Of a stretch of 64,000 bases of DNA, positions 11,725 through 29,753 are shown piece after piece; the first letter of the stretch is position 1; each line of letters opens with the position of its first letter. This DNA is from Halotalea alkalilenta. GTDB lineage: Bacteria; Pseudomonadota; Gammaproteobacteria; Pseudomonadales; Halomonadaceae. The stretch covers positions 3,968,001-4,032,000 of the forward strand of contig NZ_CP015243.1 in NCBI RefSeq assembly GCF_001648175.1, in the 5' to 3' direction. The notes beneath the pieces are model-generated. The model saw only the letters and a list, made by a program, of their open reading frames with translations. It was not told the origin of the DNA and made no database searches. The position numbers were made by a program, and so were the translations under genes.

Positions 11725-11740
11725 TTCAAATCCCGTGCCA
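11725..11740 (-). promoter_or_regulatory. Sigma-54-like promoter of ssuA (-12 imperfect)
   Basis: Read leftward: TGGCACGGGATTTGAA. The -24 half TGGCACG is perfect; the -12 half reads TTGA rather than TTGC. It lies about 55 bp upstream of the ssuA start codon. The matching 18-bp activator site is exactly 83 bp further upstream, which supports the call despite the changed base. Confidence 0.65.
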
Positions 11741-11799
11741 GCGATCAAGCTACTAATTTAAAAGGATTACCTCTTCCAGCGCTGCTAATCTCCAGGTGC

Positions 11800-11834
11800 T
11801 TTTCCCACAGTGCGTCTTCCCCGCTGTGGGAAAA
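11800..11834. repeat. Perfect 11-bp inverted repeat upstream of ssuA
   Basis: TTTTCCCACAG at 11800-11810 and CTGTGGGAAAA at 11824-11834 are exact reverse complements separated by 13 bases. The right arm is part of the proposed activator site and the left arm belongs to a second copy, so the repeat probably reflects paired protein sites rather than an RNA structure. Confidence 0.7.
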
Positions 11835-11841
11835 CCAGCAG
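11824..11841 (-). promoter_or_regulatory. Putative SfnR activator site for ssuA
   Basis: CTGTGGGAAAACCAGCAG on the plus strand, an imperfect palindrome matching the island consensus at all eight invariant positions. Its near edge is 83 bp from the -24 element. A second, oppositely oriented copy (reverse of 11793-11810) is centred 31 bp nearer the promoter, about three helical turns away. Assignment to SfnR is inferred. Confidence 0.65.
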
Positions 11842-12322
11842 CGAGCCTGGTGCCGCCTTGGACGGTCTTCGAGCGTGGAGCTTCGGGGCGAACTGCAAGT
11901 CCGGATGGCGACGCTTCGCGGATCGCGACGATGAAGGCTTCAGTACAGGCCCGCGTGTATGGCGAAAGAAACGCGCCAGGAAAGAGACGACATATCGATT
12001 CGCGTCTCTAAGCTTGCGCTGGTTTCGCGCACCCGTGATTCATCCGCCCCTCCCCTCTGCCCACGGCAAAGCTTTACTCAGTCTTTATTAAACTTATGTA
12101 AACGCCGAAAACATCTATGAGACCGGTACCATCGCCTGTTTTTCGCTTTATCTCGACCAAAGTCGGCTATGGACTTAGCAGCACGCTCCCTAGAGTTCGC
12201 CCACTGAATCGGATAATCGCCCCTTCGCAGCACTGACCAGATCGGTCCGCGGCGATGTCTTCTTCCTTATTACCGCTTCCACTAATTACAACCCTTACGT
12301 GGCTAACTCCCGGAGTACGCTC
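11842..12322. other. Intergenic region before the dicarboxylate symporter gene
   Basis: About 480 bp without a credible gene between the ssuA control region and dctA. It becomes A/T-rich after 12070 and should hold the dctA promoter. I looked for a sigma-54 element, common before dctA, and did not find a convincing one. A weak 7-bp stem (AGAGACG/CGTCTCT near 11985-12010) is the only other structure seen. Confidence 0.4.
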
Positions 12323-13771
12323 ATGAGCTCATCGACCCTAGCCGCCGCACCGCCTCGTCGGCGACCGCTCTGGCACCACCTCTATTTCTGGGTACTAGTC
12401 GGCATCGGCATCGGCATTCTCATCGGCTTCTTCCTGCCCGAAGTCGGTTCTCAGATGAAGTGGCTGGCGGATCTGTTCATCAAGCTGGTCAAGATGGTGA
12501 TCGCCCCGACCATCTTCGCAACCGTCGCGGTGGGCATCGCCGGGCTCGGCAACCTCGCCAAGGCCGGCGGCCTGGCCATGCGGACGGTGATCTACTTCAA
12601 CGTCACCACGGTGTTCGCGCTCGGTATCGGCCTGATCACCATCAACCTGCTGGCACCAGGTGCCTCGCTCGGCCTCGACATCGCGACCTTCGACGACTCG
12701 GCCGCGCAAAGCACCATCGCCGCCGCGGGCGGAGCCGCGGGCGGCGGGCTGACGGGCTTTTTGCTCGGACTGGTACCGACCTCGTTCTTCAGCGCCTTCG
12801 TCGAAGGCCAGCTGATCCAGGTCCTGGTGCTCGCCATCCTGGTCGCCTGCGCGATCACCATGCTCGGCGAGCGCGGCAAGCCGGTAGTCGCAGCACTCGA
12901 CGTGGTCGCCAAGGTGATGTTCGGGGTGATCAAGATCGTGATGTGGTTCGCTCCGCTCGGCGCGATGGGCGGGATGGCATTCACCATCGGCGAATACGGT
13001 GGGCAGATCCTCGGCTCGCTGGCGCACTTCATGCTCAGCTTCTACATCACTTGCCTGGTGTTCTTGTTCCTGATCCTGGGGCCGATCTGCTGGTGGAGCG
13101 GTTTCAGCCTGTTCAAGTACATCCGCTTCATCAAAGACGAGCTGCTGATCGTACTCGGCACCTCCTCCTCCGAGACCGTGCTGCCGCGCATGCTCGCCAA
13201 GCTCGAGGCCGCGGGCGCGCCGAAGTCGGTGGTCGGCCTGACCATTCCGACCGGCTACTCGTTCAACCTCGACGGTACCGCGATCTACATGACCATGGGT
13301 GCGATCTTCATCGCCCAGGCATTCGGTATCGATGTGCCCATCTGGACCCAGATCGGGATACTGGTGTTCATGCTGATCTCCTCCAACGGTGCCGCAGGCG
13401 TCTCCGGTGCTGGTTTGGTGACCTTGGCCGCGTCGCTGGCGGCGTTCGACGACGTCATCCCGCTGGCGGGGATCGCGCTGATCGTCGGTATCGACCGCTT
13501 CATGTCCGAAGGGCGCGCGCTGACCAACCTGACCGGCAACGGTATCGGCACCCTGGTGATCGCACGCTGGACCGGCCAGCTCGATCTCGATCGCCTGCGC
13601 TACGTGCTCGACAATCCGGAAACCGTCGATGCCGACGCCCTGATGCGCGCCGACATCGAAGGCCAAGCCAGCGAAGTCGATGGCCAATCGTCCATTGCGC
13701 CGCAGCGCGCGCCGGCCGAAGGACGCACGGACGCCTCACAGCAGGACTGGGGCGGACAACCCAAGCACTGA
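12323..13771 (+). CDS. Dicarboxylate/amino acid:cation symporter, DctA/GltP family
   Basis: A 482-residue inner-membrane symporter of the DAACS family moving C4-dicarboxylates or acidic amino acids with H+ or Na+. Features include the first helices LYFWVLVGIGIGILIGFF, MVIAPTIFATVAVGI, the serine-rich hairpin LGTSSSETVLPRML, the GYSFNLDGTAIYMTM motif and the final NGIGTLVIARW helix. ATG 12323 is chosen because GGAG sits 7 bases upstream; a GTG at 12299 lacks such a site. The C-terminal 50 residues after the last helix are polar. It is followed by a clear terminator. Dicarboxylate versus glutamate specificity cannot be settled from sequence. Confidence 0.85.
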   Translation: MSSSTLAAAPPRRRPLWHHLYFWVLVGIGIGILIGFFLPEVGSQMKWLADLFIKLVKMVIAPTIFATVAVGIAGLGNLAKAGGLAMRTVIYFNVTTVFALGIGLITINLLAPGASLGLDIATFDDSAAQSTIAAAGGAAGGGLTGFLLGLVPTSFFSAFVEGQLIQVLVLAILVACAITMLGERGKPVVAALDVVAKVMFGVIKIVMWFAPLGAMGGMAFTIGEYGGQILGSLAHFMLSFYITCLVFLFLILGPICWWSGFSLFKYIRFIKDELLIVLGTSSSETVLPRMLAKLEAAGAPKSVVGLTIPTGYSFNLDGTAIYMTMGAIFIAQAFGIDVPIWTQIGILVFMLISSNGAAGVSGAGLVTLAASLAAFDDVIPLAGIALIVGIDRFMSEGRALTNLTGNGIGTLVIARWTGQLDLDRLRYVLDNPETVDADALMRADIEGQASEVDGQSSIAPQRAPAEGRTDASQQDWGGQPKH

Positions 13772-13784
13772 GCAAGATCCGATC

Positions 13785-13813
13785 GCGACGGGGCCCCTTG
13801 AGGGCCCCGTCGC
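13785..13813 (+). terminator. Intrinsic terminator after the symporter gene
   Basis: Perfect 12-bp GC-rich stem GCGACGGGGCCC / GGGCCCCGTCGC with a 5-base loop, followed by ATTT. It lies between convergent genes and probably serves both. Confidence 0.8.
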
Positions 13814-13879
13814 ATTTCAGCCGTCCGAACCACGCTCCCGCGCATTGGTCGCGATTGGCGTCATGGCGATTCGCCAGTG

Positions 13880-14929
13880 TCAATCGAGGCGATCGAGCGC
13901 GGCGTACTGCTCGGGGTAGTGACGCTCGGCGACGTCGCGGTGCGAGCGCAGGCGCCCCTTGATCGCATTAGGGCCGATCTCGCGGAACAGCGGATTCTTC
14001 GGGTCGCTCTCAGGCCCCAGCGCCAGCTTGGCCAGATGCTCGGGCAGCGGCAGCAGCGGTACGCTGCCTTCGAGCGAAGGCGAGAGGAAGTAGCCGATCG
14101 AATAGCGCACCACGCCCTCCGGCGGCGTGACCACCCGATGCATGGTGGCACGCAGATAGCCGTTGGTGGCGAGTTCGAGGATCTCGCCGATGTTGATCAC
14201 GAAGGCGCCTTCGATCGGCGGCACATCGATCCATCCTTCGGGGCGCTCGACTTGGAGCCCACCGTGGTGATCCTGATGCAGCAGGGTGAGAATGCCGGCG
14301 TCCTTGTGCGCCCCCACGCCCTGGCGCAGCGCCGGGTCGCTCGAACCGGGATAGCGAATCAGCTTGAGCAGCTGGGCGGGAGTCTTGTCGATCAGCCCAT
14401 CGAGCGCATCAGCGGGCTGCTCCAACGCCTGGGCGAAGGCGCGCAGCAGGCGGATCGCTACCTGACGCAGGGTCGCCGACCAGTCGAGCGCCACCTCACG
14501 CAGCTCCGGCAGCCCGGCGGGCCACTGGTTAGGCCCTTGCAGTCGCTTCCAGACCGGGGCATCGGGCCCCAGTTCGAGCGCCGGCAGCTCGACGCCGATA
14601 TCGATCTGCTCACGACGGTCGGGGCGGTTGCGGGTCAGTTCATGGCCGGTGGCGGTATAGCCGCGAAAATGCGGCGAATTGGCCATTCCGATCGCATGCT
14701 TCTCCTCATCGGGCAGGGCAAAGAAGCGCCTCGACACTTCCTCTATCCGAACGAATTTCTCCGCCGCTACGCCATGTCCGATGAGATAGAAAAAGCCGAT
14801 CTCGCGGGCGGCGTGGCCCAGCTCGGCGAGGAAGGCAGCGCGACGCTCGGGAACCTCCAGCTCGCGCAGGTCGAGTACCGGCAGCGCAGCCGCGGCACTC
14901 GAGACGCAACCGGGGAATGAATCACTCAC
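13880..14929 (-). CDS. Isopenicillin N synthase-like 2-oxoglutarate/Fe(II) dioxygenase
   Basis: A 349-residue cytoplasmic non-haem iron oxygenase. The N-terminal DIOX_N region (LPVLDLRELE, ARE-IGFFYLIGHGV) precedes the double-stranded beta-helix with metal ligands HKD in GVGAHKDAGILTLL, the distal histidine in ATMHRVV, and the arginine/serine pair RYSIGYF that binds the co-substrate. Substrate unknown; relatives oxidise small molecules. The start is a GTG with AAGGAG 7 bases upstream. It lies downstream of the sulfur monooxygenase at 15053 on the same strand with a 123-bp gap, so it may be co-transcribed and could act on a sulfur compound; that is inference only. Confidence 0.85.
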   Translation of the reverse strand: MSDSFPGCVSSAAAALPVLDLRELEVPERRAAFLAELGHAAREIGFFYLIGHGVAAEKFVRIEEVSRRFFALPDEEKHAIGMANSPHFRGYTATGHELTRNRPDRREQIDIGVELPALELGPDAPVWKRLQGPNQWPAGLPELREVALDWSATLRQVAIRLLRAFAQALEQPADALDGLIDKTPAQLLKLIRYPGSSDPALRQGVGAHKDAGILTLLHQDHHGGLQVERPEGWIDVPPIEGAFVINIGEILELATNGYLRATMHRVVTPPEGVVRYSIGYFLSPSLEGSVPLLPLPEHLAKLALGPESDPKNPLFREIGPNAIKGRLRSHRDVAERHYPEQYAALDRLD

Positions 14930-15052
14930 TGCTCAACTCCTTTGCATGTCATCGCATTCTGCTTGGATCGCTCACTTCCCGAAGTTTAGCCCCCGACCCG
15001 CGCATCGTTCGAACATCCGCATGCTCACGCCGCCGCGGCGAGCGCGCCATCA

Positions 15053-16489
15053 TCACAGCGTCTCTGGAGCGGCCGCCGCAGCCGAACAAGACGGTGACGC
15101 GCCAGCGCTACTGCGCCGATAGGCGGCGGCGGGATGCCGCTGCGGCAGTCGGTCACCGGCGCCGAACAGACGCTGGCGCAGGCTTTGCGGTCGCCCCTGG
15201 GCGTCGAGCGGATAGTCGCGCTTGACCAAGCCGCGCTCGCGCAGTTCGGGGACCACCAGGTCGACGAAAGCGTCGAAGCACTCCGGCACCACGGTGCGGG
15301 CCAGATTGAAGCCGTCGATGTCCACCTCCTCCACCCACCGGGCCAGCTCATCGGCAACCGTCGCCCCGCTGCCGACCAACGGCGTGTAGCGTCCACCGAG
15401 GGCATGCTGCTCGAGTAGCGCTCTAGGCGTCACCGCGCGCTCGGCGGCGGTAAGATTATCGACCGCCGACTGGATCGCATTGCGGTTGCCACGCCGGATC
15501 GGCTCGTCGAGACCGAAACGGGAGAAGTCGATCCCGGTACTCGCGGCAAAGTGTGCCAAGCCCGCTTCGGGATTGGCATAGCGCTGGTATTCGGCGAGCC
15601 GCTCCCTGGCTTCGGCGTCGCTGTCGGCGACGATCGCCGTGGCACCGAGGAATATCTTCAGGTCATCGGCACGGCGGCCGGCCTCGACCGCCTGGCGCCG
15701 GAGACTGCGCACCAGCTCTCGCGCCTTGGCGCGGTCCTGCAATGAGATGAATACGCACTCGGCATGCCGCGCGGCGAACGCCTGGCCTCGGCCCGAGCTG
15801 CCCGCCTGATAGAGCACCGGGGTGCGCTGACGCGAAGGTTCGCTCAGATGGTAGCCGCGCAGCCGGTAGAACTCGCCGTGGTGGTCGATCTCATGGACCT
15901 TGGCACCGTCGGCGAAGCGCCGGCCCGCCTTGTCGCGCAGCACCGCCGAATCTTCCCAGCTTCCTTCCCACAGCGCATAGACCACCGCCATGAACTCCTC
16001 GGCACGCTCATAGCGGCGATCGTGCTCCAGCTGACCATCGAGCCCCATCGCCCGGGCGGCGCTGTCGAGATATCCGGTGACGATGTTCCAGCCGATCCTC
16101 CCCCGGGTGAGGTGATCGAGGGTCGAAAATCGCCGGGCGAAGCTGTAGGGGGTTTCGTAGCTCAGATTGACCGTGACCCCGAAGCCCAGATGCTCGGTGA
16201 CCTGGGCCATTGCCGGTACCAGCAGCAGCGGATCGTTGACCGGCAGTTGGATCGACTCGGCCAGGGTCAGCTCGATGCCTTCCTGGTAGACGTCGTAGAC
16301 GCCGAGGATGTCGGCGAGAAACAGTCCATCGAAGCCACCGCGCTCCAGCGTTCTGGCGAGCCCTGTCCAGTAGTCGAGCGAATGGTAGTCAATCGAGCGA
16401 TCGCGCGGATGGGCCCAGAGGCCATGGTTGATGTGCCCTACGCAGTTCATGTTGAAAGCGTTGAGCAATAGCGGCTTGCAAGTCGGCAT
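15053..16489 (-). CDS. Flavin-dependent monooxygenase, NtaA/SnaA/DszA family (third copy of the island)
   Basis: A 478-residue luciferase-like (TIM-barrel) FMNH2-dependent monooxygenase. It shares with the copies at 24.5 and 26.8 kb the start LLNAFNMNC, GLFLADILGVYDVY, PVNDPLLLVPAM, RFSTLDHLTRGRIGWNIVTGYL and the substrate loop RTPVLYQAGSSGRG. Family members cleave C-N or C-S bonds in nitrilotriacetate, dibenzothiophene sulfone or N-acetyl-S-(2-succino)cysteine; the substrate here is unknown. ATG 16489 is preceded by GGGGAG; an upstream ATG has none. Its own sigma-54 promoter and activator site make it a separate unit of the sulfur regulon. Confidence 0.9.
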   Translation of the reverse strand: MPTCKPLLLNAFNMNCVGHINHGLWAHPRDRSIDYHSLDYWTGLARTLERGGFDGLFLADILGVYDVYQEGIELTLAESIQLPVNDPLLLVPAMAQVTEHLGFGVTVNLSYETPYSFARRFSTLDHLTRGRIGWNIVTGYLDSAARAMGLDGQLEHDRRYERAEEFMAVVYALWEGSWEDSAVLRDKAGRRFADGAKVHEIDHHGEFYRLRGYHLSEPSRQRTPVLYQAGSSGRGQAFAARHAECVFISLQDRAKARELVRSLRRQAVEAGRRADDLKIFLGATAIVADSDAEARERLAEYQRYANPEAGLAHFAASTGIDFSRFGLDEPIRRGNRNAIQSAVDNLTAAERAVTPRALLEQHALGGRYTPLVGSGATVADELARWVEEVDIDGFNLARTVVPECFDAFVDLVVPELRERGLVKRDYPLDAQGRPQSLRQRLFGAGDRLPQRHPAAAYRRSSAGASPSCSAAAAAPETL

Positions 16490-16523
16490 CGGATCTCCCC
16501 TGGGGTGCATTGCACGAATGCCG

Positions 16524-16539
16524 GGCAAATCCCATGCCA
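16524..16539 (-). promoter_or_regulatory. Sigma-54 promoter of the 15.0-16.5 kb monooxygenase
   Basis: Read leftward: TGGCATGGGATTTGCC, with GG and GC ten bases apart as the class requires. It lies about 36 bp upstream of the ATG at 16489 and resembles the ssuA element (same GGGATTTG spacer). The activator site is 83 bp upstream. Confidence 0.82.
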
Positions 16540-16545
16540 TTGGAT

Positions 16546-16558: not shown

Positions 16559-16622
16559 GTTCGATGGTTTTATCGATCCATCGCTGGTTCGCTAGCAGAT
16601 TCCCGGCTGGATTGGCAGCGCA

Positions 16623-16640
16623 CTGGCGGAAATCCGACAG
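16623..16640 (-). promoter_or_regulatory. Putative SfnR activator site for the 15.0-16.5 kb monooxygenase
   Basis: CTGGCGGAAATCCGACAG on the plus strand, the best palindrome of the set (CTG..CGGA and TCCG.CAG arms). The near edge is 83 bp from the -24 element. The 13-base core GGAAATCCGACAG is identical to that of the site at 29589. Confidence 0.7.
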
Positions 16641-16671
16641 CCAGCGAACCGTACCAGGAGCGGCTTTCGAG

Positions 16672-16713: not shown

Positions 16714-17211
16714 TCAGGCCGGCAGCGCGGCGTGCGTTTCGATGGTCTTGATGCAGGCGTTGGCGACTTCGACGCCCTTGAGCTTGAAATGCTCGCGGAA
16801 GAAGGTCTGATGCTCGGCGTGCTCATGGAAGCGCAGCGGGGTCAGTACCATCGACAACACCGGCACGCCAGTCTCAAGGCCCACCTGCATCAGCGCCTTG
16901 ATCACCGCATCGGCGACGAAGTCATGGCGGTAGATGCCGCCATCGACGACGAACCCCGCGGCGATCACCGCTGCGTATTCACCGCTGGCGGCGAGCTTCT
17001 TGGCCAGCAGCGGGATTTCGAACGCACCCGCGACCTCGAAACGATCGATGTTGGCGGTGTCGAATCCCTGGCGCGCATATTCCTCGAAGAAGGCAAGGCG
17101 CGCGTTGTCGACGATATCGGCATGCCAGCTCGCCTGGATGAAGGCGATGCGACCGGTCGAAAAACGTGTAGCGGTGGATGATGCGAGTTCTGCGTTGACA
17201 GGCTGATTCAT
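16714..17211 (-). CDS. ribH2: 6,7-dimethyl-8-ribityllumazine synthase, RibH2 type
   Basis: A 165-residue enzyme condensing 5-amino-6-ribitylaminouracil with dihydroxybutanone phosphate to lumazine, the riboflavin precursor. Motifs IAFIQASWHADIVDNAR, EVAGAFEIPLLAKKLA, GFVVDGGIYRHDFVADAVI and the lysine-rich end FREHFKLKGVEVANACI match the RibH2 subtype known from Brucella and Mesorhizobium rather than the icosahedral RibH1/RibE. ATG 17211 follows GAGGAAG. The gene stands alone, about 100 bp downstream of an FMN riboswitch, among genes for FMNH2-using monooxygenases. A housekeeping ribH may exist elsewhere. Confidence 0.9.
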   Translation of the reverse strand: MNQPVNAELASSTATRFSTGRIAFIQASWHADIVDNARLAFFEEYARQGFDTANIDRFEVAGAFEIPLLAKKLAASGEYAAVIAAGFVVDGGIYRHDFVADAVIKALMQVGLETGVPVLSMVLTPLRFHEHAEHQTFFREHFKLKGVEVANACIKTIETHAALPA

Positions 17212-17310
17212 GGCTTCCTCATCACGATGAAAGGATCTAACGACCAGAATCAGGGCAAAAACGGATGACGAGGATACGCCCATTGGGAGCGCATGAAGGG
17301 ATTCGACATC

Positions 17311-17571: not shown

Positions 17572-18225
17572 TCAACGGCTGCGCAGATAGGCCACGCTGC
17601 GATCGCCGATGAACTGGATGATGCAGACCACCACGATCAGGATCGCGATTACCGCGATCATCACCGTGGTGTCATAGCGCTGGTAGCCATAGCGGATCGC
17701 CAGGTCTCCGAGCCCGCCCGCACCGATCGCACCGGCCATCGCCGAAGCGCCGATCATCGCCACCAGGGTGATGGTGAAGCCACCGATGATGCCGGGCAAC
17801 GCCTCGGGGAACATCACTCGCGAGATGATCGCGAACGGCTTCAGCCCCATCGCCTGGGCGGCCTCGAGCACGCCGGGATCGACCTCGCGCAGGCTCACCT
17901 CCACTACCCTGGCGAAGAACGGCGTGGCGCTGATGCTGATCGGCACGATCGCCGCCCAAACGCCGATGCTGGTGCCGACGATCAGCCGGGTCAGGGGAAT
18001 CAGCGCGACCAGCAGGATGATGAACGGCGTTGCGCGGAAGCCGTTGATCACCCAGGCCAATGGCCGGTGGATCCACGGCGCGGCGAAGATCCCTCCGCGC
18101 GCGGTGGTGACCAGCAGCACCGCGAGCGGAATACCCGCGCACCACGCGATCAGCGCCGACACCGAGACCATCGTCAGGGTATCGAGAAAAGCGCCCCACA
18201 GCGCCTGGATCATTACGTCAGACAT
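17572..18225 (-). CDS. metI: Methionine-type ABC transporter permease MetI
   Basis: A 217-residue inner-membrane permease, the same length as E. coli MetI, with five or six membrane helices. It has the ABC-permease coupling loop EAAQAMGLKPFAIISRVMFPEALPGI and the MetI stretch GFRATPFIILLVALIPLTRLIVGTSIG. ATG 18225 overlaps the metN stop by 8 bases, so the two are coupled. With MetN and MetQ it forms the MetQNI importer for methionine or related sulfur compounds. In this island, where the operon has a sigma-54 promoter shared in design with desulfurising enzymes, the cargo may be another organosulfur compound. Confidence 0.92.
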   Translation of the reverse strand: MSDVMIQALWGAFLDTLTMVSVSALIAWCAGIPLAVLLVTTARGGIFAAPWIHRPLAWVINGFRATPFIILLVALIPLTRLIVGTSIGVWAAIVPISISATPFFARVVEVSLREVDPGVLEAAQAMGLKPFAIISRVMFPEALPGIIGGFTITLVAMIGASAMAGAIGAGGLGDLAIRYGYQRYDTTVMIAVIAILIVVVCIIQFIGDRSVAYLRSR

Positions 18226-19390
18226 AGCCCACCACCTCGATTCGCGCATCGATCAGCGCGGCCTGCTCCAGCGCCGTGCGTGCGTCCCCACCCTTGATAC
18301 CGACCAGCAGGCTTCCTTGGGCATGCCCTTGGAGACGATCGATGCCGCCGTGCAGCAGCATCGCCCGATCGCCGAGCGCAGCGAGGATCCGTCCCAACCC
18401 TACGCCGTCCTGGCGCCCTTTGACGCCACCGTAGTCGAGCTTGAACACCAGCGTGTCATGCCCCTCTTGCGGTGCCTCGCGCAGCCGTGCGGCCAAGTCC
18501 TCAGGCAAGCGTACGGCCAGCGGCGCGAGCATCGCCTTGGTGGCATCATGTCGCGGCGCACCGAACACCTGCCAGACCGGCCCGCTTTCGACCAGTTCGC
18601 CGTGCTCGAGCACCGCGACCCGGTCGCAGACCTCCCGGATCACCGCCATCTCATGGGTGATCAACACGATGGTGAGACCGAGCCGACGATTGATCTCTCG
18701 CAGCAGCGCCAGGATCGTCTGGGTGGTCTCGGGGTCGAGCGCCGAGGTCGCTTCGTCACAGAGCAGCACCTCGGGGTCGAGCATCAGCGCACGGGCAATA
18801 CCGACCCGCTGCTTCTGCCCGCCCGAGAGCCGTGAAGGAAATACTTCCGCCTTGCCCTCGAGCCCAACCAGCGCCAGCAGCCGCTCGACTCGGCGGCGGA
18901 TCTCCGCGCGCGGCAGCCCCGCCGCGCGGGCGGGCAGCGCCAGGTTCTCGAACACGCTCTTCGAGCGCAGCAGGTTGAAGTGCTGGAAGATCATCCCGGT
19001 GCGGCGGCGCAGTCGCACCAGTTCGTTGCCACTCAGCCGCTGCACATCCTGCCCATCGATCTCCACCGAGCCACCGCTCGCGCGTTCCAGCCGATTGATG
19101 GTGCGGATCAGGCTCGACTTGCCAGCGCCGCTGCGGCCGATGATGCCGAATATCTCTGCGCGCCTGATCTTGAGATCGATCCCCTTGAGCGCCTCCACCG
19201 GTCCTCTGGCAGTGTGGTAATGCTTGGACAGACTGCGGAAAACGATGTGCGCATCACCAGCGCGCGGCGCCTGTCTCCCGGCGGCATCGTCGACATGCGG
19301 CTCGATACCGGCAAACGCGGCGGAGCCGTCATCGCTCAGCAGCCGGTCGTAGGAGGCGCCGCTGGTGCGCAGCTCATAGCTCGAACTCAT
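18218..19390 (-). CDS. metN: Methionine-type ABC transporter ATPase MetN
   Basis: A 390-residue ATPase with Walker A GRSGAGKSS, the signature LSGGQKQRVGIARAL, Walker B VLLCDEATSALD and the switch histidine in LITHEMAV. The C-terminal ~80 residues form the ferredoxin-like NIL domain that in E. coli binds methionine and inhibits transport. It has an unusual polar extension of about 45 residues before the ATPase core, longer than E. coli MetN (343 residues). It lies 11 bp after metQ and overlaps metI. Confidence 0.92.
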   Translation of the reverse strand: MSSSYELRTSGASYDRLLSDDGSAAFAGIEPHVDDAAGRQAPRAGDAHIVFRSLSKHYHTARGPVEALKGIDLKIRRAEIFGIIGRSGAGKSSLIRTINRLERASGGSVEIDGQDVQRLSGNELVRLRRRTGMIFQHFNLLRSKSVFENLALPARAAGLPRAEIRRRVERLLALVGLEGKAEVFPSRLSGGQKQRVGIARALMLDPEVLLCDEATSALDPETTQTILALLREINRRLGLTIVLITHEMAVIREVCDRVAVLEHGELVESGPVWQVFGAPRHDATKAMLAPLAVRLPEDLAARLREAPQEGHDTLVFKLDYGGVKGRQDGVGLGRILAALGDRAMLLHGGIDRLQGHAQGSLLVGIKGGDARTALEQAALIDARIEVVGYV

Positions 19391-19401
19391 CGCATCTCTC
19401 C

Positions 19402-20337: not shown

Positions 20338-20410
20338 GGCAAGGCTCCATAGGGCAAATGGACAGCAGGCGAAAGAAAAGCGCGCGGCAATGACCGCGTA
20401 CAGCTCTATC

Positions 20411-20426
20411 AGCAAGCCCTATGCCA
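20411..20426 (-). promoter_or_regulatory. Sigma-54 promoter of metQNI
   Basis: Read leftward: TGGCATAGGGCTTGCT, GG and GC ten bases apart. It lies about 75 bp upstream of the metQ start codon. The activator site begins 83 bp upstream. Confidence 0.82.
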
Positions 20427-20428
20427 CA

Positions 20429-20441
20429 TATCAAGCCATTG
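20429..20441 (+). promoter_or_regulatory. IHF site upstream of metQNI
   Basis: TATCAAGCCATTG matches WATCAANNNNTTR fully and is followed by an A/T-rich stretch, as is usual for IHF sites. It lies between the promoter and the activator site. Confidence 0.65.
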
Positions 20442-20509: not shown

Positions 20510-20527
20510 CTGCTCATTTTCCAACAG
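20510..20527 (-). promoter_or_regulatory. Putative SfnR activator site for metQNI
   Basis: Read leftward: CTGTTGGAAAATGAGCAG, keeping all eight invariant positions of the set. The near edge is 83 bp from the -24 element. Confidence 0.65.
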
Positions 20528-23243: not shown

Positions 23244-24476
23244 TCAGCTCGTCTGGCCAGAACCGCGGCCGACCTTCCAGACCAACGGTGGCTCGGTCCG
23301 GTTGACTGCCCAGTCGCCGATGATGCGCGCTTTGTAGATCAGCGGATTGTGCGATGCGGCGGTGCGTGCGTTGCGCCAGTGGCGATCGAGCAGCTGATCG
23401 ACGCGCACCGCGGAGGCGCCCAGCGCATTGAAAAGTTCGGTCGCCGAGCGAAGCACCAGCTCGGCGACCACCAACTGCGCCTTGGCGGAAGCGAGTTCGG
23501 CCTCGATGTTGGCCGCATGCCTGGCCTCGACATCACCGGCAAGATGCGCATCGAACACCCGCTGCGCGGCCTCGGCGGCACTGATCGCGACGGCCTCGGC
23601 GGCGTAGACCTGCGCCGATATCTGGCCCACCACCTGGAGCACCTGTGGGTCCTCGGCGGCCCTCGGACCATTGCCATGGCTGTAGATCCGTTTGCGATCG
23701 CGTACCTGGACACTGAGATCGCGCTCGATGGCGCGGCCGATCCCCACCAGCACCGAGACCAGATTCAGTTGGTAGAACGCGGTCTGGTAGACGAAACGGC
23801 TGGCGAAATCGATTACGTCATTCCGATCCACCCGCGCGCCATCGAACAGGGTAGTACCGCTGCCGGTGGTGCGCTGGCCGAAGCCGTCCCAGTCGTCCGA
23901 GCGCTGGACCCCAGGCTGGTGGGTGCTGACCGCGGCGATCACCTTGCCACCGGTATCCGTTCTCTCGGCATAGACATCGATCCAGTCGGCGAAGATGCTG
24001 CCGGTGCTGTAGTACTTGGCCCCGTCCAACCGCCAGTGCTCGCCCTCTGGCGTCACCTTGGTCTGCACCTCGCCCAGGGCCGGTGCGCCGACCTCGGTCC
24101 AGCCGTTACCGACCAGCTGGCCATCGGCGAAGCGTGCCAGCCAGCGTTCACGATCGGGCCCGGGCGGTGCGTTGAGCCGATCCTCGACGAAGGCGAAATG
24201 GCCACGCAATGCCTGGGTCAGATTGGAATCCGCCGCGGCCAGCTCGATCCATAGCCGGACGAGCTGGACCAGTGACGCGCCGCCGCCGCCCTGCTCGAGC
24301 GGCACACGCACGGCGCCGAAACCAGCCTGCTTGAGCCAGCCGAGCTGCTCGACCGGCAGGCTGCGCTCGCGTTCGCGAGCCTCGGCACCCTGGCCTATCC
24401 GCGCGAATATCGGCCGAAAGCGCGCAGCCAGACTGTCGTAGTCGACGGCGTTGGTGAAGGTGGAATGGATGGTCAT
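23244..24476 (-). CDS. SfnB/DszC-family acyl-CoA dehydrogenase-like flavoprotein (second copy)
   Basis: A 410-residue protein of the acyl-CoA dehydrogenase superfamily in the branch holding SfnB, SoxC and DszC, which use reduced flavin to oxygenate sulfur compounds. Segments include LKQAGFGAVRVPLEQGGGGASL, GAKYYSTGSIFADW, WDGFGQRTTGSGTTLFDGARV and the C-terminal DQLLDRHWRNARTAASHNP. ATG 24476 has GAGGA upstream. It is the last gene of the operon that begins at 29452, 40 bp after the preceding monooxygenase gene. A role in oxidising thioethers or sulfoxides to sulfones is the family-based expectation; substrate unknown. Confidence 0.87.
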   Translation of the reverse strand: MTIHSTFTNAVDYDSLAARFRPIFARIGQGAEARERERSLPVEQLGWLKQAGFGAVRVPLEQGGGGASLVQLVRLWIELAAADSNLTQALRGHFAFVEDRLNAPPGPDRERWLARFADGQLVGNGWTEVGAPALGEVQTKVTPEGEHWRLDGAKYYSTGSIFADWIDVYAERTDTGGKVIAAVSTHQPGVQRSDDWDGFGQRTTGSGTTLFDGARVDRNDVIDFASRFVYQTAFYQLNLVSVLVGIGRAIERDLSVQVRDRKRIYSHGNGPRAAEDPQVLQVVGQISAQVYAAEAVAISAAEAAQRVFDAHLAGDVEARHAANIEAELASAKAQLVVAELVLRSATELFNALGASAVRVDQLLDRHWRNARTAASHNPLIYKARIIGDWAVNRTEPPLVWKVGRGSGQTS

Positions 24477-24516
24477 CGCAAGACGTCCTCTTATGGTCTG
24501 AAAGCGCGTCGCGGGC

Positions 24517-25944
24517 TCAGGTAGAGAGAGCGAACTTCGACAGTCTGGTGGCATCGGTGGCATTGGCCCGATCACGGAAGGCGCCGCGATAGCGCGCGGC
24601 GGGATGACTCGGGTCGACCCGAGCGGAGTCGCTGTCGAGCAGGTTCTCGCGCAGAGTCTCGCCGCCGTAGTCGGCACGCACTCGGCCGCGACGCTCGAGC
24701 TCGGGCACGACGAACTCGATGAAATCCTCGAAGGTGCCGGGAGTGATTGCGTAGGCGAGATTGAAACCATCGATACCCCCTACCTCCATCCAACGCTCCA
24801 GCGCACCGGCGACGGTCTCGGGGCCGCCGACCAGCACCGGACCGAGGCCACCGATGCTGCGCCGCTCGATGATGTCGCGCGGGGTCCAGCGTCGATCAGG
24901 ATCAGCGGTGGCAAGCAGCTCGAGCACCGAGCGAATGCTGTCGTTGTCGATCGCCTCGAGCGGCTGGTCGGGATCGAAGGCGGAGAAGTCGACCCCAGTC
25001 CAGCCGCCGTAGAAGGTCAGCATCCCCTCGCCGCTGGCGAGGCGCTGGTACTCGTCGAACTTGCGCGCAGCGGCGGCGTCGCTCTCGGCGGTGATCACCG
25101 TCAGCAGCGTGAATATCCTCAGCGAATGCGGGTCGCGGCCGAACGCTCGAGCGCGGCTACGGATATCGTCACTGACCTCGCGCGCCTGCTCCGGCGTCGC
25201 CGGGCTGATGAACACCCCCTCGGCGTGCTTGGCGGCGAAGTCGCGCCCGCGCGGCGAGGCCCCGGCCTGGAAGATCACCGGCGTGCGCTGGGGCGAGGGC
25301 TCGCAGAGATGAATCCCCGGCACCTCGTAGTACTTACCCCGGTGACCGATCGGATGGACCTTGCGCGGATCGCTGAACACCCCGCGCTCGCGGTCGCGCA
25401 CCACCGCGTCATCCTCCCACGAGCCCTCCCATAGCTTGTAGGTGACGTCGAGGAACTCATCGGCGATGTCGTAGCGTTCGTCGTGGGAGATCTGCTGCTT
25501 GTGCCCGAGGTTGACCGCGGCGCTGTTGAGATAGGAGGTGACCACGTTCCACGCCACCCGCCCCTTGGTCAGGTGATCGAGGGTCGAGAACTTGCGCGCC
25601 AGCGCATAGGGCTGCTCATAGGTCAGGGCCGAGGTCACGCCGAAGCCGAGATGCCGGGTCACCGCCGCCATCGCCGGCACCTGGAAGAATGGATCGTTGA
25701 CCGGCACTTGGTCGGCATCGATCAGCGCACTCTCGACCGAGCCGCGGTAGACGTCGTAGACCCCGACCACATCGGCGATGAACAGCGTATCGAAGCGCCC
25801 GCGCTCGAGCAGCCGGGCCAGCTCGGTCCAATAATCGAGATCCTTGTAGCGCCACGCTTGGTTGTCGGGGTGGCGCCAGGTACCCGCAGCCTGATGGCTT
25901 ACGCAGGTCATGTCGAAGGCGTTGAGGATAATGCGTTTGGGCAT
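24517..25944 (-). CDS. Flavin-dependent monooxygenase, NtaA/SnaA/DszA family (second copy)
   Basis: A 475-residue luciferase-like FMNH2-dependent monooxygenase. Motifs: ILNAFDMTC at the start, FIADVVGVYDVYRG, QVPVNDPFFQVPAM, STLDHLTKGRVAWNVVTSYLNSAA, and PSPQRTPVIFQAGASPRGRDFA. It is the fourth gene of the sulfur operon, 38 bp after the second metQ and 40 bp before the SfnB-like gene. The pairing of a DszA-type with a DszC-type enzyme, both needing reduced flavin from a separate reductase, suggests stepwise S-oxidation and C-S cleavage of one substrate class. No flavin reductase gene is in the window. Confidence 0.92.
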   Translation of the reverse strand: MPKRIILNAFDMTCVSHQAAGTWRHPDNQAWRYKDLDYWTELARLLERGRFDTLFIADVVGVYDVYRGSVESALIDADQVPVNDPFFQVPAMAAVTRHLGFGVTSALTYEQPYALARKFSTLDHLTKGRVAWNVVTSYLNSAAVNLGHKQQISHDERYDIADEFLDVTYKLWEGSWEDDAVVRDRERGVFSDPRKVHPIGHRGKYYEVPGIHLCEPSPQRTPVIFQAGASPRGRDFAAKHAEGVFISPATPEQAREVSDDIRSRARAFGRDPHSLRIFTLLTVITAESDAAAARKFDEYQRLASGEGMLTFYGGWTGVDFSAFDPDQPLEAIDNDSIRSVLELLATADPDRRWTPRDIIERRSIGGLGPVLVGGPETVAGALERWMEVGGIDGFNLAYAITPGTFEDFIEFVVPELERRGRVRADYGGETLRENLLDSDSARVDPSHPAARYRGAFRDRANATDATRLSKFALST

Positions 25945-25982
25945 GGATCTAACTCCCTTTGATCGTGGGCGCTGCCGTGGGA

Positions 25983-26801
25983 TCAGTCGAGGCGGTGGTG
26001 CTCCCAGGCCAGGTCGTAAAGCTCAGCGTCACCGTAGGAACGCTCGAGCGCAGCACGCACCTCTGGGGCGGTCTGGTAGATGCGAATGAACTCATGGATG
26101 CGCGGGTCGTCTCGATTGTCCGGCCGGGTGACGAACATCAGCGCGTATTTACCTCCGGTATCGCCGTTGCAGCGCAGGGTGTCGCTCGGGTCGATGGTGC
26201 CCGCTGCGCGGACGTGGATCGGGTAGCTCTGGGCGACGTCGACGTCGGGAATCACACGGGCGAGCTGCGGCCCCTGCATCTCGACGAAGCGCAAGCGCCT
26301 GGGGTTGTCGACCACGTCGAGCACGGTGCCCTGGTCGCCAACGCCATCGCGCAGCCGGATCAGCCCGGCGTCCTGGTAGAGCAAGAGCCCGCGCCCCTGG
26401 TTGACCGGATCATCGGCGACCGCAACGGTTGCGCCGTCGGGCAGTTCATCGACGCTCGCGTGCTTGCTCGAATAGAGGCAGGTCTTGTCCTCGATGCCGA
26501 AGTCCACCGCGACCAGATCGAGGCCGAGGCTTCGCTTGGCCTCGTCGAGAAACGGCCGATGCTGGAAGTAGTTGAAGTCGAAGTCGCCATTGGCGAGCGC
26601 GGTATTAGGCGTCACCCAATCGGTGAGCTCGACCACCTCGATCTCGAGCCCCTGCCGTCGGGCCACCTCGGCGGCGGCATGCACCGAGTCGGCCTTGGGG
26701 TCGCTGTTCACCGCCAGGGTCAGCGGTGCTGCCGCAGCGCTGGCCGATGCCAGCGCGAACACCAGCGAGGCGATCAGACCGCAGCGTGCAGCGACATTCA
26801 T
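25983..26801 (-). CDS. MetQ/NlpA-family substrate-binding protein (second copy, no adjacent permease)
   Basis: A 272-residue periplasmic binding protein with a signal peptide ending ASAAAA-PLTLAV and no lipobox. It shares DWVTPNTALANGDFDFNYFQH and VAVADDPVNQGRGL with MetQ at 19402. The ATG overlaps the stop of the upstream monooxygenase gene by four bases (ATGA). A cysteine in TCLYSSKH and CNGDTGG are absent from the first copy. No metN or metI is next to it, so it may feed the MetNI pair at 17572-19390, giving that transporter a second specificity; this is inference. Confidence 0.88.
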   Translation of the reverse strand: MNVAARCGLIASLVFALASASAAAAPLTLAVNSDPKADSVHAAAEVARRQGLEIEVVELTDWVTPNTALANGDFDFNYFQHRPFLDEAKRSLGLDLVAVDFGIEDKTCLYSSKHASVDELPDGATVAVADDPVNQGRGLLLYQDAGLIRLRDGVGDQGTVLDVVDNPRRLRFVEMQGPQLARVIPDVDVAQSYPIHVRAAGTIDPSDTLRCNGDTGGKYALMFVTRPDNRDDPRIHEFIRIYQTAPEVRAALERSYGDAELYDLAWEHHRLD

Positions 26802-28192
26802 CGCGCCACCTCCAGCCGTTCGCGCTTGGTCTCGAAGCGATAGCCCGCGCCGGGATGGGGAGCAGCGAGGCGATCGCCCGCGCCGAAGAGCTTCTGGCGC
26901 AGGCTGCCGGAGCGATACTCGGACTTGTAGCGCCCACGCCGGGTCAGCTCGGGAACCAGCAAGTCGACCACTGCCTCGAAAGTCTCGGGAGTGACCGCGT
27001 AGGCGAGATTGAAGCCGTCGACGCCGGTCTCCTCCACCCACGCTTCCAGTTCGTCGGCGACCGACTCGGGGGAACCAACGCTAAGCGGCCCATAGCCGCC
27101 GATCCCGACCCAGCGGGCAACCTCCTCGGGGGTCCAGACCCGCCCGGGATCAGCGCTGGAAAACGCCTCGACCGCCGACTGGATCGCGTTGGTGTGTACA
27201 TGGGCAAGCGGCTGGCGCGGATCGAACCCGGCCATATCGAGCCCGGTCCAGCCGGAGATCAGGGTCAGAGCGCCATCGAGATCGACATAGTCGAGATATT
27301 CCCGATGACGGGCACGCGCTAAGGCATCGCTGTCATCGACGATCACCGTATGCAGGTTGAAGATCTTGAGCGCGTCCGGCGCACGTCCAGCGATCTCGGC
27401 CTGGTGGCGCAGTCCTTCGACTACCTTGCGCAGCACCGTCTTCGATGGCGCAGCAGCGAACACGCACTCGGCATGCCGAGCGGCGAAGGCAGTACCGCGG
27501 GAGGAGGCCCCGGCCTGGAACAGCACCGGAGTGCGCTGCGGCGATGGCTCGCACAGGTGGATGCCAGGCACCTCGAAGTAGCGTCCGCGATGGTCGATCG
27601 GGTGGACCCGCGCCGGATCGGCGTAGCGGTTGGCCGCGGCCTCGCGCAGTACCGCCGCCGCCTCCCAGCTGCCCTCCCATAGCTTGTAGCAGACCTCGAG
27701 ATACTCCTCGGCCAAGTCGTAGCGCTGATCATGGTCGAGCTGCTGGCGCTGGCCAAGATTGCGCGCGCCGCTCTCCAGGTAGGAGGTGACGATATTCCAG
27801 CCGACCCGACCATCGGTCAGGTGATCGAGTGTCGACAGGCGTCGAGCAAACGGATAGGGGTGCTCGAAGGAGAGCGAGGCGGTCAGCCCAAACCCTAGAT
27901 GCTCGGTCACCGTCGCCATCGCCGCGACCAGCGGCAGCGGATCGTTCACCGGCACCTGCACCGCGCCACGCAGCGCCTCGCTGGCATCGCCGCGATAGAC
28001 GTCGTAGACGCCGAGCACATCGGCGATGAACAGCGCATCGAAGCGCCCGCGCTCGAGGGTGCGAGCGAGCTCGAGCCAGTAGTCCAGCCGTCGATAGTCG
28101 CGCGCACGATCGCGCGGGTGACGCCACAGCCCCGGCGACTGATGGACGATGCAGTTCATGTCGAAAGCGTTGAGCAGGATCTCTTTCATCAT
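26798..28192 (-). CDS. Flavin-dependent monooxygenase, NtaA/SnaA/DszA family (first copy)
   Basis: A 464-residue relative of the enzymes at 15053 and 24517. Motifs: ILLNAFDMNCIVHQSPG, FIADVLGVYDVYRG, STLDHLTDGRVGWNIVTSYLESGARN, PSPQRTPVLFQAGASSRGTAFA. Second gene of the sulfur operon, 12 bp after the SfnB-like gene and overlapping the second metQ by four bases. The C-terminus, like that of the 15.0 kb copy (LRQKLFGAGDRL), differs from the 24.5 kb copy (LRENLLDSDSARV), so the copies are diverged and probably differ in substrate. Confidence 0.92.
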   Translation of the reverse strand: MMKEILLNAFDMNCIVHQSPGLWRHPRDRARDYRRLDYWLELARTLERGRFDALFIADVLGVYDVYRGDASEALRGAVQVPVNDPLPLVAAMATVTEHLGFGLTASLSFEHPYPFARRLSTLDHLTDGRVGWNIVTSYLESGARNLGQRQQLDHDQRYDLAEEYLEVCYKLWEGSWEAAAVLREAAANRYADPARVHPIDHRGRYFEVPGIHLCEPSPQRTPVLFQAGASSRGTAFAARHAECVFAAAPSKTVLRKVVEGLRHQAEIAGRAPDALKIFNLHTVIVDDSDALARARHREYLDYVDLDGALTLISGWTGLDMAGFDPRQPLAHVHTNAIQSAVEAFSSADPGRVWTPEEVARWVGIGGYGPLSVGSPESVADELEAWVEETGVDGFNLAYAVTPETFEAVVDLLVPELTRRGRYKSEYRSGSLRQKLFGAGDRLAAPHPGAGYRFETKRERLEVAR

Positions 28193-28204
28193 CGATTCCA
28201 GGCG

Positions 28205-29452
28205 TCAGTTCCAGGCATGGCGCTTTGGCGAGGCGCCGTTGAGCAGATGGTTGCCGAGCAGATGGAGCTTCCAGCGCACCGGGTCGTGCAGGGTATGCAC
28301 GCGAGCATTGCGCCAGTGCCGGTCATAGCCGAACTCTGAAAGCGTCGAGCTGGTGCCGCTCAGTTCGAACAGTCGCTCGGCCGCCTCGAGGGCGAACTCG
28401 GTGGTCGCCACCTTGGCCTTGGCTACCGCTACCGAGGCGAGGTCGACCGTCTCATCGTCGAGCTGGCGGTCGGCCTCGTCGACCGCCAGCGCTGCGCGCT
28501 CGAACAGCGCGTCCGCAGCCTCGCGCTGAGTGGCGAGCCGGCCGAGGCGAGCCAGCGAGAGTGGATCTTCGCAGGCCCTCTCGACCCCGCTGTCGATCCA
28601 GGGACGGGCGCGATGGCGCAGGTAATCGAGGGTGTCGTCGAGGGCACCGACGCCGATGCCAAGATCGATCGCCGCCTGAAGCAGCTGAGAGACCGGACCG
28701 TTCGAAGAGGCGCCGCCTGGCCGCTCACCCACCACCACCCGGCTACGCGGCAGCACCGCGCTATCGAGGATCACGCTACCGCTGGCGGTAGTGCGCTGGC
28801 CGAAGCTGCTCCAGTCGTCTACCACCTCGAGTCCCGAGGTATGGCGATCGAAGAACGCCACCTCCACTTGCCCCTCAGCGTTGGTCGCGGTGACGGGCAC
28901 CAGATCGGCGTAGAGCGCCCCTGTGGAATAGAACTTGCGCCCGTCGACCCGGGCACGGGCCTCATCGACCGCGGTGATCCGGGTCTCGAACACGCCTACG
29001 TGGGCCCGAGTCTTTGCATCCCGAGCATTACGCTTCTCGCTCAGTGCGTTGCCGATGCGAGCGCCAGAGAGCACTGCGCCGAACAGCTCACGCTGCTGCT
29101 CCGCACTGGCGTTGAGGGCGATGAAATTGACGTAGCCGAAATGGTTCTGCGCCAGCTGGGCGATCGAAGGATCTGCCGCACTGATGATCGCGAATACCCG
29201 GGCCACGGTGAGATAAGAGGCTTGGAGGCCACCGTGCTCGCGCGGCACGCTGATCGCCCACAGGCCGCTATTGGAGTAGGCATCGAGTTCCGCCACCGGT
29301 GCCAGCCGCTCCCGGTCGCGCTGCGCGGCGCCGGGCGCGAACTGCGCCGCGAGACGATGAGCGATCTCCAAGGCCTCGGCCTCGGTAGCCACGCGGCCGG
29401 CGACGGGCCGTGAGCCCGTTGCCGTTCGATCCAGCAAGGATGGCGTGCTCAT
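28205..29452 (-). CDS. sfnB: SfnB/DszC-family acyl-CoA dehydrogenase-like flavoprotein (first copy)
   Basis: A 415-residue flavoprotein of the SfnB group. Segments: SNSGLWAISVPREHGGLQASY, NHFGYVNFIAL, GRKFYSTGALYADLVPV, WSSFGQRTTASGSVILDSAVLPRSRV and the end GYDRHWRNARVHTLHDPVRWKLHLLGNHLLNG, which is typical of SfnB sulfur-acquisition oxidoreductases. It is the first gene of the five-gene operon sfnB, monooxygenase, metQ-like, monooxygenase, sfnB-like, driven from a sigma-54 promoter 39 bp upstream. In Pseudomonas putida sfnAB are part of dimethylsulfone use under SfnR control. Confidence 0.88.
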   Translation of the reverse strand: MSTPSLLDRTATGSRPVAGRVATEAEALEIAHRLAAQFAPGAAQRDRERLAPVAELDAYSNSGLWAISVPREHGGLQASYLTVARVFAIISAADPSIAQLAQNHFGYVNFIALNASAEQQRELFGAVLSGARIGNALSEKRNARDAKTRAHVGVFETRITAVDEARARVDGRKFYSTGALYADLVPVTATNAEGQVEVAFFDRHTSGLEVVDDWSSFGQRTTASGSVILDSAVLPRSRVVVGERPGGASSNGPVSQLLQAAIDLGIGVGALDDTLDYLRHRARPWIDSGVERACEDPLSLARLGRLATQREAADALFERAALAVDEADRQLDDETVDLASVAVAKAKVATTEFALEAAERLFELSGTSSTLSEFGYDRHWRNARVHTLHDPVRWKLHLLGNHLLNGASPKRHAWN

Positions 29453-29490
29453 TGGGTGTGCATTCCTCGAAAGCGTTGGGAATGCTTGAC

Positions 29491-29506
29491 AGCAACTTTC
29501 GAGCCA
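29491..29506 (-). promoter_or_regulatory. Sigma-54 promoter of the five-gene sulfur operon
   Basis: Read leftward: TGGCTCGAAAGTTGCT, with GG and GC ten bases apart, about 39 bp upstream of the ATG at 29452. It is divergent from the ssuD promoter. The activator site begins 82 bp upstream. Confidence 0.82.
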
Positions 29507-29511
29507 CTCCG

Positions 29512-29524
29512 TAATATATTGATT
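29512..29524 (-). promoter_or_regulatory. IHF site upstream of the five-gene sulfur operon
   Basis: Read leftward AATCAATATATTA, a full match to WATCAANNNNTTR, adjoining the A/T tract 29521-29548. Confidence 0.65.
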
Positions 29525-29588
29525 TTAAAATAAAAAATAAAATATCCAGAAACTACCGGTATGGATTCCAACCAGCACGGCCAGCCAT

Positions 29589-29606
29589 GCGCTGGAAATC
29601 CGACAG
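29589..29606 (-). promoter_or_regulatory. Putative SfnR activator site for the five-gene operon
   Basis: GCGCTGGAAATCCGACAG on the plus strand. The core GGAAATCCGACAG is identical to the site at 16623. The near edge lies 82 bp from the -24 element at 29506. Confidence 0.7.
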
Positions 29607-29636
29607 TGATGGCCTGCGTTCCCCTGCCCGCCGTCG

Positions 29637-29654
29637 CTGTGGAAAATCAAACAG
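29637..29654 (+). promoter_or_regulatory. Putative SfnR activator site for ssuD
   Basis: CTGTGGAAAATCAAACAG, with perfect outer arms CTGT/ACAG. The near edge lies 83 bp from the ssuD -24 element at 29738. Together with 29589 it gives two sites in one divergent control region, one per promoter. Confidence 0.68.
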
Positions 29655-29707
29655 CACGCCGCCCGTGTTGATGGGTATCTATCACCAAGCGCCGGGCCAA
29701 TGAGCCT

Positions 29708-29720
29708 CAAATCATTGATA
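29708..29720 (-). promoter_or_regulatory. IHF site upstream of ssuD
   Basis: Read leftward TATCAATGATTTG, a full match to WATCAANNNNTTR, between the activator site and the sigma-54 promoter. Confidence 0.62.
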
Positions 29721-29737
29721 TATAAGCAAAGCGAACA

Positions 29738-29753
29738 TGGCATGCGCTATGCA
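29738..29753 (+). promoter_or_regulatory. Sigma-54 promoter of ssuD
   Basis: TGGCATGCGCTATGCA, GG and GC ten bases apart; the -12 half reads ATGC rather than TTGC. It implies an untranslated leader near 115 bases before the ATG at 29882. Confidence 0.72.

Follow-up and report, generated by a model that had tools for sequence, protein, structure and literature searches.

The 64-kb stretch of DNA analyzed here (the window) comprises positions 3968001–4032000 of the one-contig, 4.39-Mb genome of Halotalea alkalilenta. It contains an 18-kb cluster of sulfur-scavenging genes, inside which five sigma-54 promoters are each preceded by an 18-bp palindrome, here called upstream activator sequence 1 (UAS1), and which very probably forms a local regulon of the adjoining sigma-54 activator gene sfnR. 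All five -24/-12 elements and all five 18-mers were located where the first-pass annotation of this DNA had placed them, and the distances that it gave from the near edge of each 18-mer to the TGG of the promoter (83, 83, 83, 82 and 83 bp) were reproduced. The elements and sfnR, in window coordinates, are:

11725–11740, minus strand: sigma-54 promoter of ssuA, TGGCACGGGATTTGAA, with GA at -12
11824–11841, minus strand: UAS1 of ssuA, CTGCTGGTTTTCCCACAG, 83 bp from TGG
16524–16539, minus strand: sigma-54 promoter of an NtaA/DmoA-family monooxygenase gene
16623–16640, minus strand: UAS1 of this NtaA-type gene, CTGTCGGATTTCCGCCAG, the top 18-mer of the genome scan with 1 mismatch
20411–20426, minus strand: sigma-54 promoter of metQNI
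20510–20527, minus strand: UAS1 of metQNI, CTGTTGGAAAATGAGCAG
29491–29506, minus strand: sigma-54 promoter of the sfnB operon
29589–29606, minus strand: UAS1 of sfnB, CTGTCGGATTTCCAGCGC, at 82 bp in the window and 83 bp in the sister species
29738–29753, plus strand: sigma-54 promoter of ssuD, with ATGC at -12
29637–29654, plus strand: UAS1 of ssuD, CTGTGGAAAATCAAACAG
31133–32290, minus strand: sfnR, encoding a 385-residue sigma-54 activator, likely start ATG at 32290

The units that these promoters had been proposed to serve (ssuA, the NtaA-type monooxygenase, metQNI, the sfnB operon and ssuD) were confirmed in their gene assignments, and comprise the following genes and open reading frames (ORFs):

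10694–11671, minus strand: ssuA-family sulfonate-binding protein gene
9658–10626, minus strand: cysE-like serine acetyltransferase gene, downstream of ssuA
15053–16540, minus strand: NtaA/DmoA-family, flavin mononucleotide (FMN)-dependent monooxygenase ORF, whose true start must be downstream of the promoter
13880–14929: 2-oxoglutarate-Fe(II) oxygenase gene, after the NtaA-type ORF
17572–20415, minus strand: MetQNI-type ATP-binding cassette (ABC) transporter (metQ ORF 19402–20415, metN 18218–19390, metI 17572–18249)
23244–29452, minus strand: apparent five-gene sfnB operon, with ORF starts unsettled at overlaps (sfnB 28205–29452; luciferase-like monooxygenase (LLM) 26798–28192; MetQ-like 25983–27041; LLM monooxygenase 24517–25944; SfnB-like dehydrogenase 23244–24770)
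29846–31099, plus strand: ssuD, FMNH2-dependent alkanesulfonate monooxygenase

Two related genomes were used for close comparison: a sister species of the same genus (G001; locus L111), with 94–95% nucleotide identity across the cluster, and a member of another genus of the same family (G017; loci L113 and L114), whose SfnR is 74% identical to that of the window. The GG-N10-GC pattern ascribed to the promoters stands in four of the five and fails in ssuA, which reads GG-N10-GA (GG-N10-GG in the sister species). Likewise, the identity claimed for positions 3, 6, 8–10 and 16–18 of all five 18-mers depends on a site-by-site choice of strand (the window minus strand for metQ, the plus strand for the rest). 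In the promoter direction, CTG at positions 1–3 and G at position 6 are common to all five and CAG at positions 16–18 to four, and positions 8–10 vary. Beyond what had been annotated, we found a second site 31–32 bp nearer the promoter, sites resembling those of integration host factor (IHF), and a sixth 18-mer at sfnR. For rpoN, the genome gave one Sigma54_DBD match above the cut-off.

The constancy of the spacing, which the earlier annotation thought hard to explain by chance, was confirmed and lies far outside what chance would give. Twelve sigma-54-like sites were matched in the window, and these five alone have a good 18-mer upstream (14–17 of 18 positions at 82–83 bp, compared to a best 18-mer of at most 11 at the other seven). 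As the 18-mer consensus used in this comparison was built from the same five sites and is thus circular, a half-site rule (CTGTTG-N6-CAACAG, 12 positions) was taken instead from palindromes near sfnR in Pseudomonas. By this rule, the five sites score 10, 9, 10, 8 and 10 of 12 at their own distances. The sum at a common distance of 83 bp is 43 of 60, or 47 with the 82-bp site shifted, which lies 8 standard deviations (SD) above the other distances (mean 14.9, SD 3.5, maximum 26; 280 distances tested). The runner-up among the 280 is 52 bp, i.e. 31 bp closer to the promoter. The naive joint probability is approximately 3e-17, assuming even base composition and with a rule chosen after the window motif had pointed to it.

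The genome-wide search for the motif followed by 83 bp, proposed in the first-pass annotation as a check, gave zero-mismatch matches confined to the cluster in the H. alkalilenta genome (two, ntaA and metQ) and in the sister genome (three, ntaA, metQ and sfnB), and none in G017; the regulon therefore looks local at this stringency. The window sfnB site was missed because its spacing is 82 bp, and ssuD was missed at up to one mismatch because it has two. Allowing one mismatch added ssuA and two places beyond the cluster in the own genome, one place beyond it in the sister species, and two in G017. An off-spacing control at 81 bp returned no zero-mismatch matches in the three genomes; at one mismatch it returned three in the own genome, including the 18-mer at sfnR, directed away from sfnR. 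Searched at up to three mismatches, the 18-mer occurs at 17 places in the own genome (reversed control, 5), five of them within the window, including the one at sfnR, where 0.25 would be expected by length. None of the remaining 12 places has a good sigma-54 site at 82–84 bp; the metQ 18-mer, with four mismatches, falls outside the 17. Between the window and the sister species, UAS1 positions are identical at 86/90 and promoter positions at 74/80, compared to 636/804 in the rest of the regions (p = 2e-5 and p = 0.0016, respectively).

SfnR comprises a sigma-54 AAA+ domain (PF00158), an AAA lid and a Fis-type helix-turn-helix (HTH_8), with no Pfam sensor domain matched, and its gene adjoins organosulfur genes (ssuD, sfnB and LLM monooxygenases). 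Its nearest named relatives are from Carnimonas bestiolae (73% identity) and a Halomonadaceae bacterium (68%). In a midpoint-rooted tree with flagged long branches, SfnR fell into a group with 100/99 support holding 27 of the 33 rows, most of which had been chosen for likeness to the window SfnR, apart from six other sigma-54 activators. The group includes a protein named SfnR by its source (P0005) and the SfnRs of msu-sfnR loci; neither the alignment nor the tree contains three further SfnR-like copies (L200, L201 and L203). The motif QVHxAxLLGxSRN in the helix-turn-helix is common to the window SfnR and the Pseudomonas SfnRs, and differs in two other activators of the own genome.

At E ≤ 1e-88, SfnR was found in 13 of 390 genomes sampled from the order. 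The Pseudomonas-type set combines two loci named as Pseudomonas with five genomes that belong to a single family and are taken as Pseudomonas from their place in the SfnR tree. Near sfnR in this set, palindromes of the type CTGTTGCC-N2-GGCAACAG precede sigma-54 sites, at a distance of 82 or 83 bp for the msu-sfnR operons of six loci, 84 bp for an sfnFG-type operon (L032), and 86 bp for sfnG. Here MsuE was assigned by NCBIfam in L031 and L190, SfnG by NCBIfam in L032 and L258, MsuD by 66–69% identity to the window SsuD, and MsuC by position alone, plus 34–35% likeness to SfnB in three loci. Since the palindrome precedes msu-sfnR, the sfnFG-type operon and sfnG in these genomes, it is tied to SfnR. 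Across 12 SfnR genomes, the palindrome was found at 67 places (reversed control, 41). Of the 11 with at most one mismatch, eight have a sigma-54 site at 72–99 bp and those in G264, G303 and G317 have none, and among nine inspected of the 56 with two mismatches, seven lack a sigma-54 site and two have a distant one (157 and 167 bp). Genes behind such sites include an SsuA-type ABC operon and a sugar-type ABC operon (L256 and L257); the ORFs tried at L255 and L260 matched no family.

A matrix built from the window and Pseudomonas sites reached its threshold of 24 bits in 4 of 16 held-out SfnR loci (L034, L198, L202 and L206) and in 1 of 59 loci of other activators (p = 0.006). One of the 16, L114, gave the matrix an 18-mer and scored below the threshold, so that the count without it is 4 of 15; the 59 control loci are the ones, out of 76, that span 10 kb or more, and were classed as non-SfnR by lower likeness rather than by tree. 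At ssuD genes, a matching promoter was found at 94 bp in Erwinia (37.7 bits) and at 84 bp in G017, away from sfnR. The G017 promoter, which had not contributed to the matrix, has a second site at +31 and scores 24.8 bits, the same as the best control locus. None of the sulfur genes of the window lies beside sfnR in G017, and no operator was found around ssuD in G336 or G371.

The earlier proposal that the SfnR encoded at 31133 binds the palindrome is thus supported by comparison, as the SfnR group, the helix-turn-helix and the Pseudomonas-type promoters all point to such binding. That a different enhancer-binding protein of the same genome binds it instead is conceivable, because an SfnR query gives six activator-type matches there, SfnR included, and Fis-type activators often use palindromes. 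It is highly improbable, however, given that the palindrome is also found upstream of operons containing sfnR (Pseudomonas-type genomes) and of sfnR itself (two Halomonadaceae genera), that the recognition helix differs in both of the other activators compared, and that the matrix threshold separates SfnR loci from other-activator loci as described above.

The spacing of 82–83 bp was overstated as a general rule, since 72, 73, 84, 86, 94 and 99 bp occur as well. Across 15 promoter groups, the distances follow a 10.5-bp period (R = 0.73; p = 0.0001 relative to a uniform distribution over 70–100 bp), some having come from searches at 70–100 bp and others from searches at 30–200 bp. The ten groups outside the window are phased by themselves (R = 0.62 at 10.5 bp, p = 0.016), gathering near 72–73, 82–86 and 94 bp, approximately one helical turn apart; 99 and 86 bp are poor fits. 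This phasing bears on whether the constant spacing was merely inherited by duplication of one ancestral promoter and is mechanistically uninformative. The cluster does hold paralogs (three NtaA-type monooxygenases, two MetQ-like and two SfnB-like proteins), but the spacers of different promoters are 31% alike, the same as their flanks, so that recent promoter duplication does not account for the fixed spacing. Together with the phasing of the non-window distances, this makes such an origin quite improbable.

A weaker second palindrome (UAS2) was found 31–32 bp closer to the promoter in three of the five window promoters, with a poor candidate in a fourth, and three spacers carry a perfect match to WATCAANNNNTTR, which we take to be the IHF consensus:

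11793–11810, minus strand: UAS2 of ssuA, CTGTGGGAAAAGCACCTG, matching 9 of 12 positions of the half-site rule, 31 bp nearer the promoter
16592–16609, minus strand: poor candidate for a UAS2 at the NtaA-type gene, matching 5 of 12 positions of the half-site rule and 12 of 18 of the full consensus
29557–29574, minus strand: UAS2 of sfnB, 32 bp nearer the promoter, 7 of 12
29668–29685, plus strand: UAS2 of ssuD, TTGATGGGTATCTATCAC, 31 bp nearer the promoter, 7 of 12
20429–20441: IHF-consensus match, 9/9, metQ spacer
29512–29524: IHF-consensus match, 9/9, sfnB spacer
29708–29720: IHF-consensus match, 9/9, ssuD spacer

Over 20 promoters, six of them msuE homologs, the mean second-site score peaks at +31 with 6.1 of 12, compared to 2.98 (SD 0.73) over all offsets; 11 of the 20 score at least 7 of 12 at exactly +31 and three more at +30 or +32. 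The UAS2 positions are identical to the sister species at 79/90, relative to the same remainder as above (p = 0.03). The three perfect IHF-consensus matches are the only ones in the 64 kb, and all lie within spacers between UAS and promoter. In the ssuA pair (11793–11841), the 13-bp spacer between the inverted-repeat arms is inverted relative to the sister species, amounting to a micro-inversion within a hairpin loop. A pair of similar palindromes separated by 22 bp was also seen near another activator gene in Desulfosporosinus hippei (L086:9475–9514), where a sigma-54-like site lies at 214 and 236 bp from them.

The sixth 18-mer lies just ahead of sfnR:

32301–32318, minus strand: CTGTTGCCAATCCAACAG, 10 nt before the sfnR ATG, kept at 18/18 positions in the sister species

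In G017, a similar palindrome, GTGTTGAGAAACCAACAG, is likewise placed 10 nt upstream of its sfnR ATG. A terminator-like hairpin at 32363–32399, 3' of the upstream gene, leaves only a short gap to the sfnR ATG, and a TCTAAT/TTTAAT stretch 5–6 bp upstream of the palindrome could be the -10 element of sfnR. This arrangement suggests that sfnR may be self-repressed in this family. A positive or neutral role of the 18-mer is unlikely without being far-fetched: in Pseudomonas-type genomes the palindrome precedes an operon ending in sfnR, which implies positive feedback there, and the promoter scan scored no sigma-70 promoter upstream of sfnR, which tells against self-repression. Such a role fits poorly, on the other hand, with a site 10 nt from the start codon, between the hairpin and the ATG, with the same placement in G017, and with a window scan that listed no sigma-54-like site before sfnR. 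At the Pseudomonas-type loci L031 and L190, sfnR begins 7 bp after the preceding ORF or overlaps it, and no palindrome with up to two mismatches was listed just upstream of it. Just past the -12 element of three Pseudomonas-type msuE promoters (L190:6268, L191:6330 and L194:6058) lies a conserved imperfect 18-mer, CTGTACCTAGCGCAACAG, a possible repressing site; a repressing site may thus not be unique to this lineage.

From the elements, their spacing, their conservation and their match to SfnR-linked promoters, all read from sequence, we infer binding, activation, the signal, the role of IHF and self-repression as follows. We consider it very likely that SfnR together with sigma-54, and probably IHF, turns on the cluster as a local regulon. 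Upon sulfate shortage, SfnR would bind UAS1, and at some promoters a second SfnR dimer would occupy UAS2, approximately 31 bp or three helical turns closer. IHF, or intrinsic bending at an AT-rich stretch, would fold the spacer DNA, such that the AAA+ ring of SfnR could meet the sigma-54 polymerase at -24/-12, 82–83 bp away, and open the promoter. The expected output would be the sulfonate-binding protein and the cysE-like gene, the flavin-dependent monooxygenases, the MetQNI-type importer, the sfnB operon and ssuD. As no sensor domain is recognized in SfnR, it is probably controlled by its amount, and SfnR bound to the 18-mer that immediately precedes its own reading frame would block sfnR expression, providing negative feedback. 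A bolder joint reading is put forward tentatively, with the odds somewhat against it: that the operators follow a phased code (UAS1, UAS2 approximately 31 bp nearer, sigma-54 at 72, 83 or 94 bp) and that the sign of the feedback is flipped in this family, with sfnR the last gene of an SfnR-activated operon in Pseudomonas and here its own unit, self-repressed from an operator before its start.

Several observations weigh against the local-regulon account. The -12 element of ssuA is poor. A half-site scan using CTGTTGGNNNNCCAACAG gave 10 places in the own genome and 21 for its reversed control (13 and 21 in the sister species, 11 and 9 in G017), and the palindrome alone is therefore not specific. 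Of the 16 held-out SfnR loci, 12 show no promoter of this layout in the stretch searched, and the matrix scores of L202 and L206 come mostly from the sigma-54 part. Order-wide, at up to two mismatches, spacing 83 is enriched in SfnR genomes (4/13 vs 33/377 others, p = 0.026), as is the control spacing of 73 (5/13 vs 52/377, p = 0.028), so 83 bp is not claimed to be unique; it stands out only at up to one mismatch (2/13 vs 1/377). The enrichment at 73 bp may be partly due to an apparently genuine match in G110 (L260), where two palindromes are spaced by 31 bp. No UAS2 was found at metQ (2/12), the ntaA candidate is poor, and 6 of the 20 promoters are without one. The IHF consensus is perfect in just three of the five spacers, and in the sister species the alignment, read by eye, shows a single mismatch each at metQ and sfnB and a full match at ssuD.

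Other genes lie within the cluster. A lumazine synthase gene (PRK12419 type; 16714–17283, minus strand) is found between metI and the NtaA-type unit and could provide flavin for the monooxygenases. Directly upstream of metQNI are genes for 3-hydroxy-3-methylglutaryl-coenzyme A (HMG-CoA) synthase and reductase (20618–22995, minus strand), which are rare in gammaproteobacteria and are present in G017 too (77–79%). The order cysE, ribH, mvaS, mvaA is the same in G017 (L113–L114) as in the window (9658–31133), and the window sulfur proteins give no match between these genes in G017, as if the sulfur genes had been inserted or lost at several points.

The analysis gives SfnR a concrete binding-site definition and a spacing rule that can be put to the test, and predicts how sfnR, whose product has no recognized sensor domain, may be restrained. 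It links SfnR to gene types absent from the titles of the SfnR papers cited below, namely metQNI, NtaA-type monooxygenases, and ssuA with the cysE-like gene, and the five natural promoters, together with the Pseudomonas ones at other spacings, offer material on how a fixed enhancer distance works. We regard as new the make-up of the local regulon, the spacing of the paired sites and the operator at sfnR. Among literature listings and the beginnings of abstracts, with the primary SfnR papers outside reach, no paper printing an SfnR site was found; a published SfnR consensus may well exist.

In Pseudomonas putida, SfnR and sigma-54 reportedly control sfnFG and sfnA under sulfate starvation, to judge by the titles of Endoh 2003 and 2005, Habe 2007 and Kouzuma 2008; sfnFG is said to be an SfnR/sigma-54 target in the title of Endoh 2005, and sfnR expression is, according to a title, under CysB. 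The window resembles this system in combining an SfnR relative, sigma-54 promoters and organosulfur genes, and a counterpart of sfnFG is seen in Pseudomonas L032, where the palindrome stands before an operon of an MsuE-type reductase and SfnG, taken as sfnFG. It differs in its predicted targets, which all lie within a single cluster (ssuA, the NtaA-type gene, metQNI, the sfnB operon with its five genes, and ssuD), and in having sfnR as a separate gene with an 18-mer before its start. Cupriavidus basilensis KF708 (L033) similarly groups ssuD, sfnR, metINQ, NtaA-type and sfnB-type genes, but unlike in the window, and to the detriment of our interpretation, its perfect palindrome at 6815 has no recognized sigma-54 promoter, either by the stricter pattern at 30–200 bp or by the matrix at 70–100 bp. 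NtrC-type promoters, finally, have tandem enhancers and IHF-assisted looping. The window promoters are like them in having, at several units, two candidate activator sites three helical turns apart and, in three spacers, a candidate IHF site between enhancer and -24/-12, and are set apart by an enhancer distance that is short and nearly fixed, at 82–83 bp.

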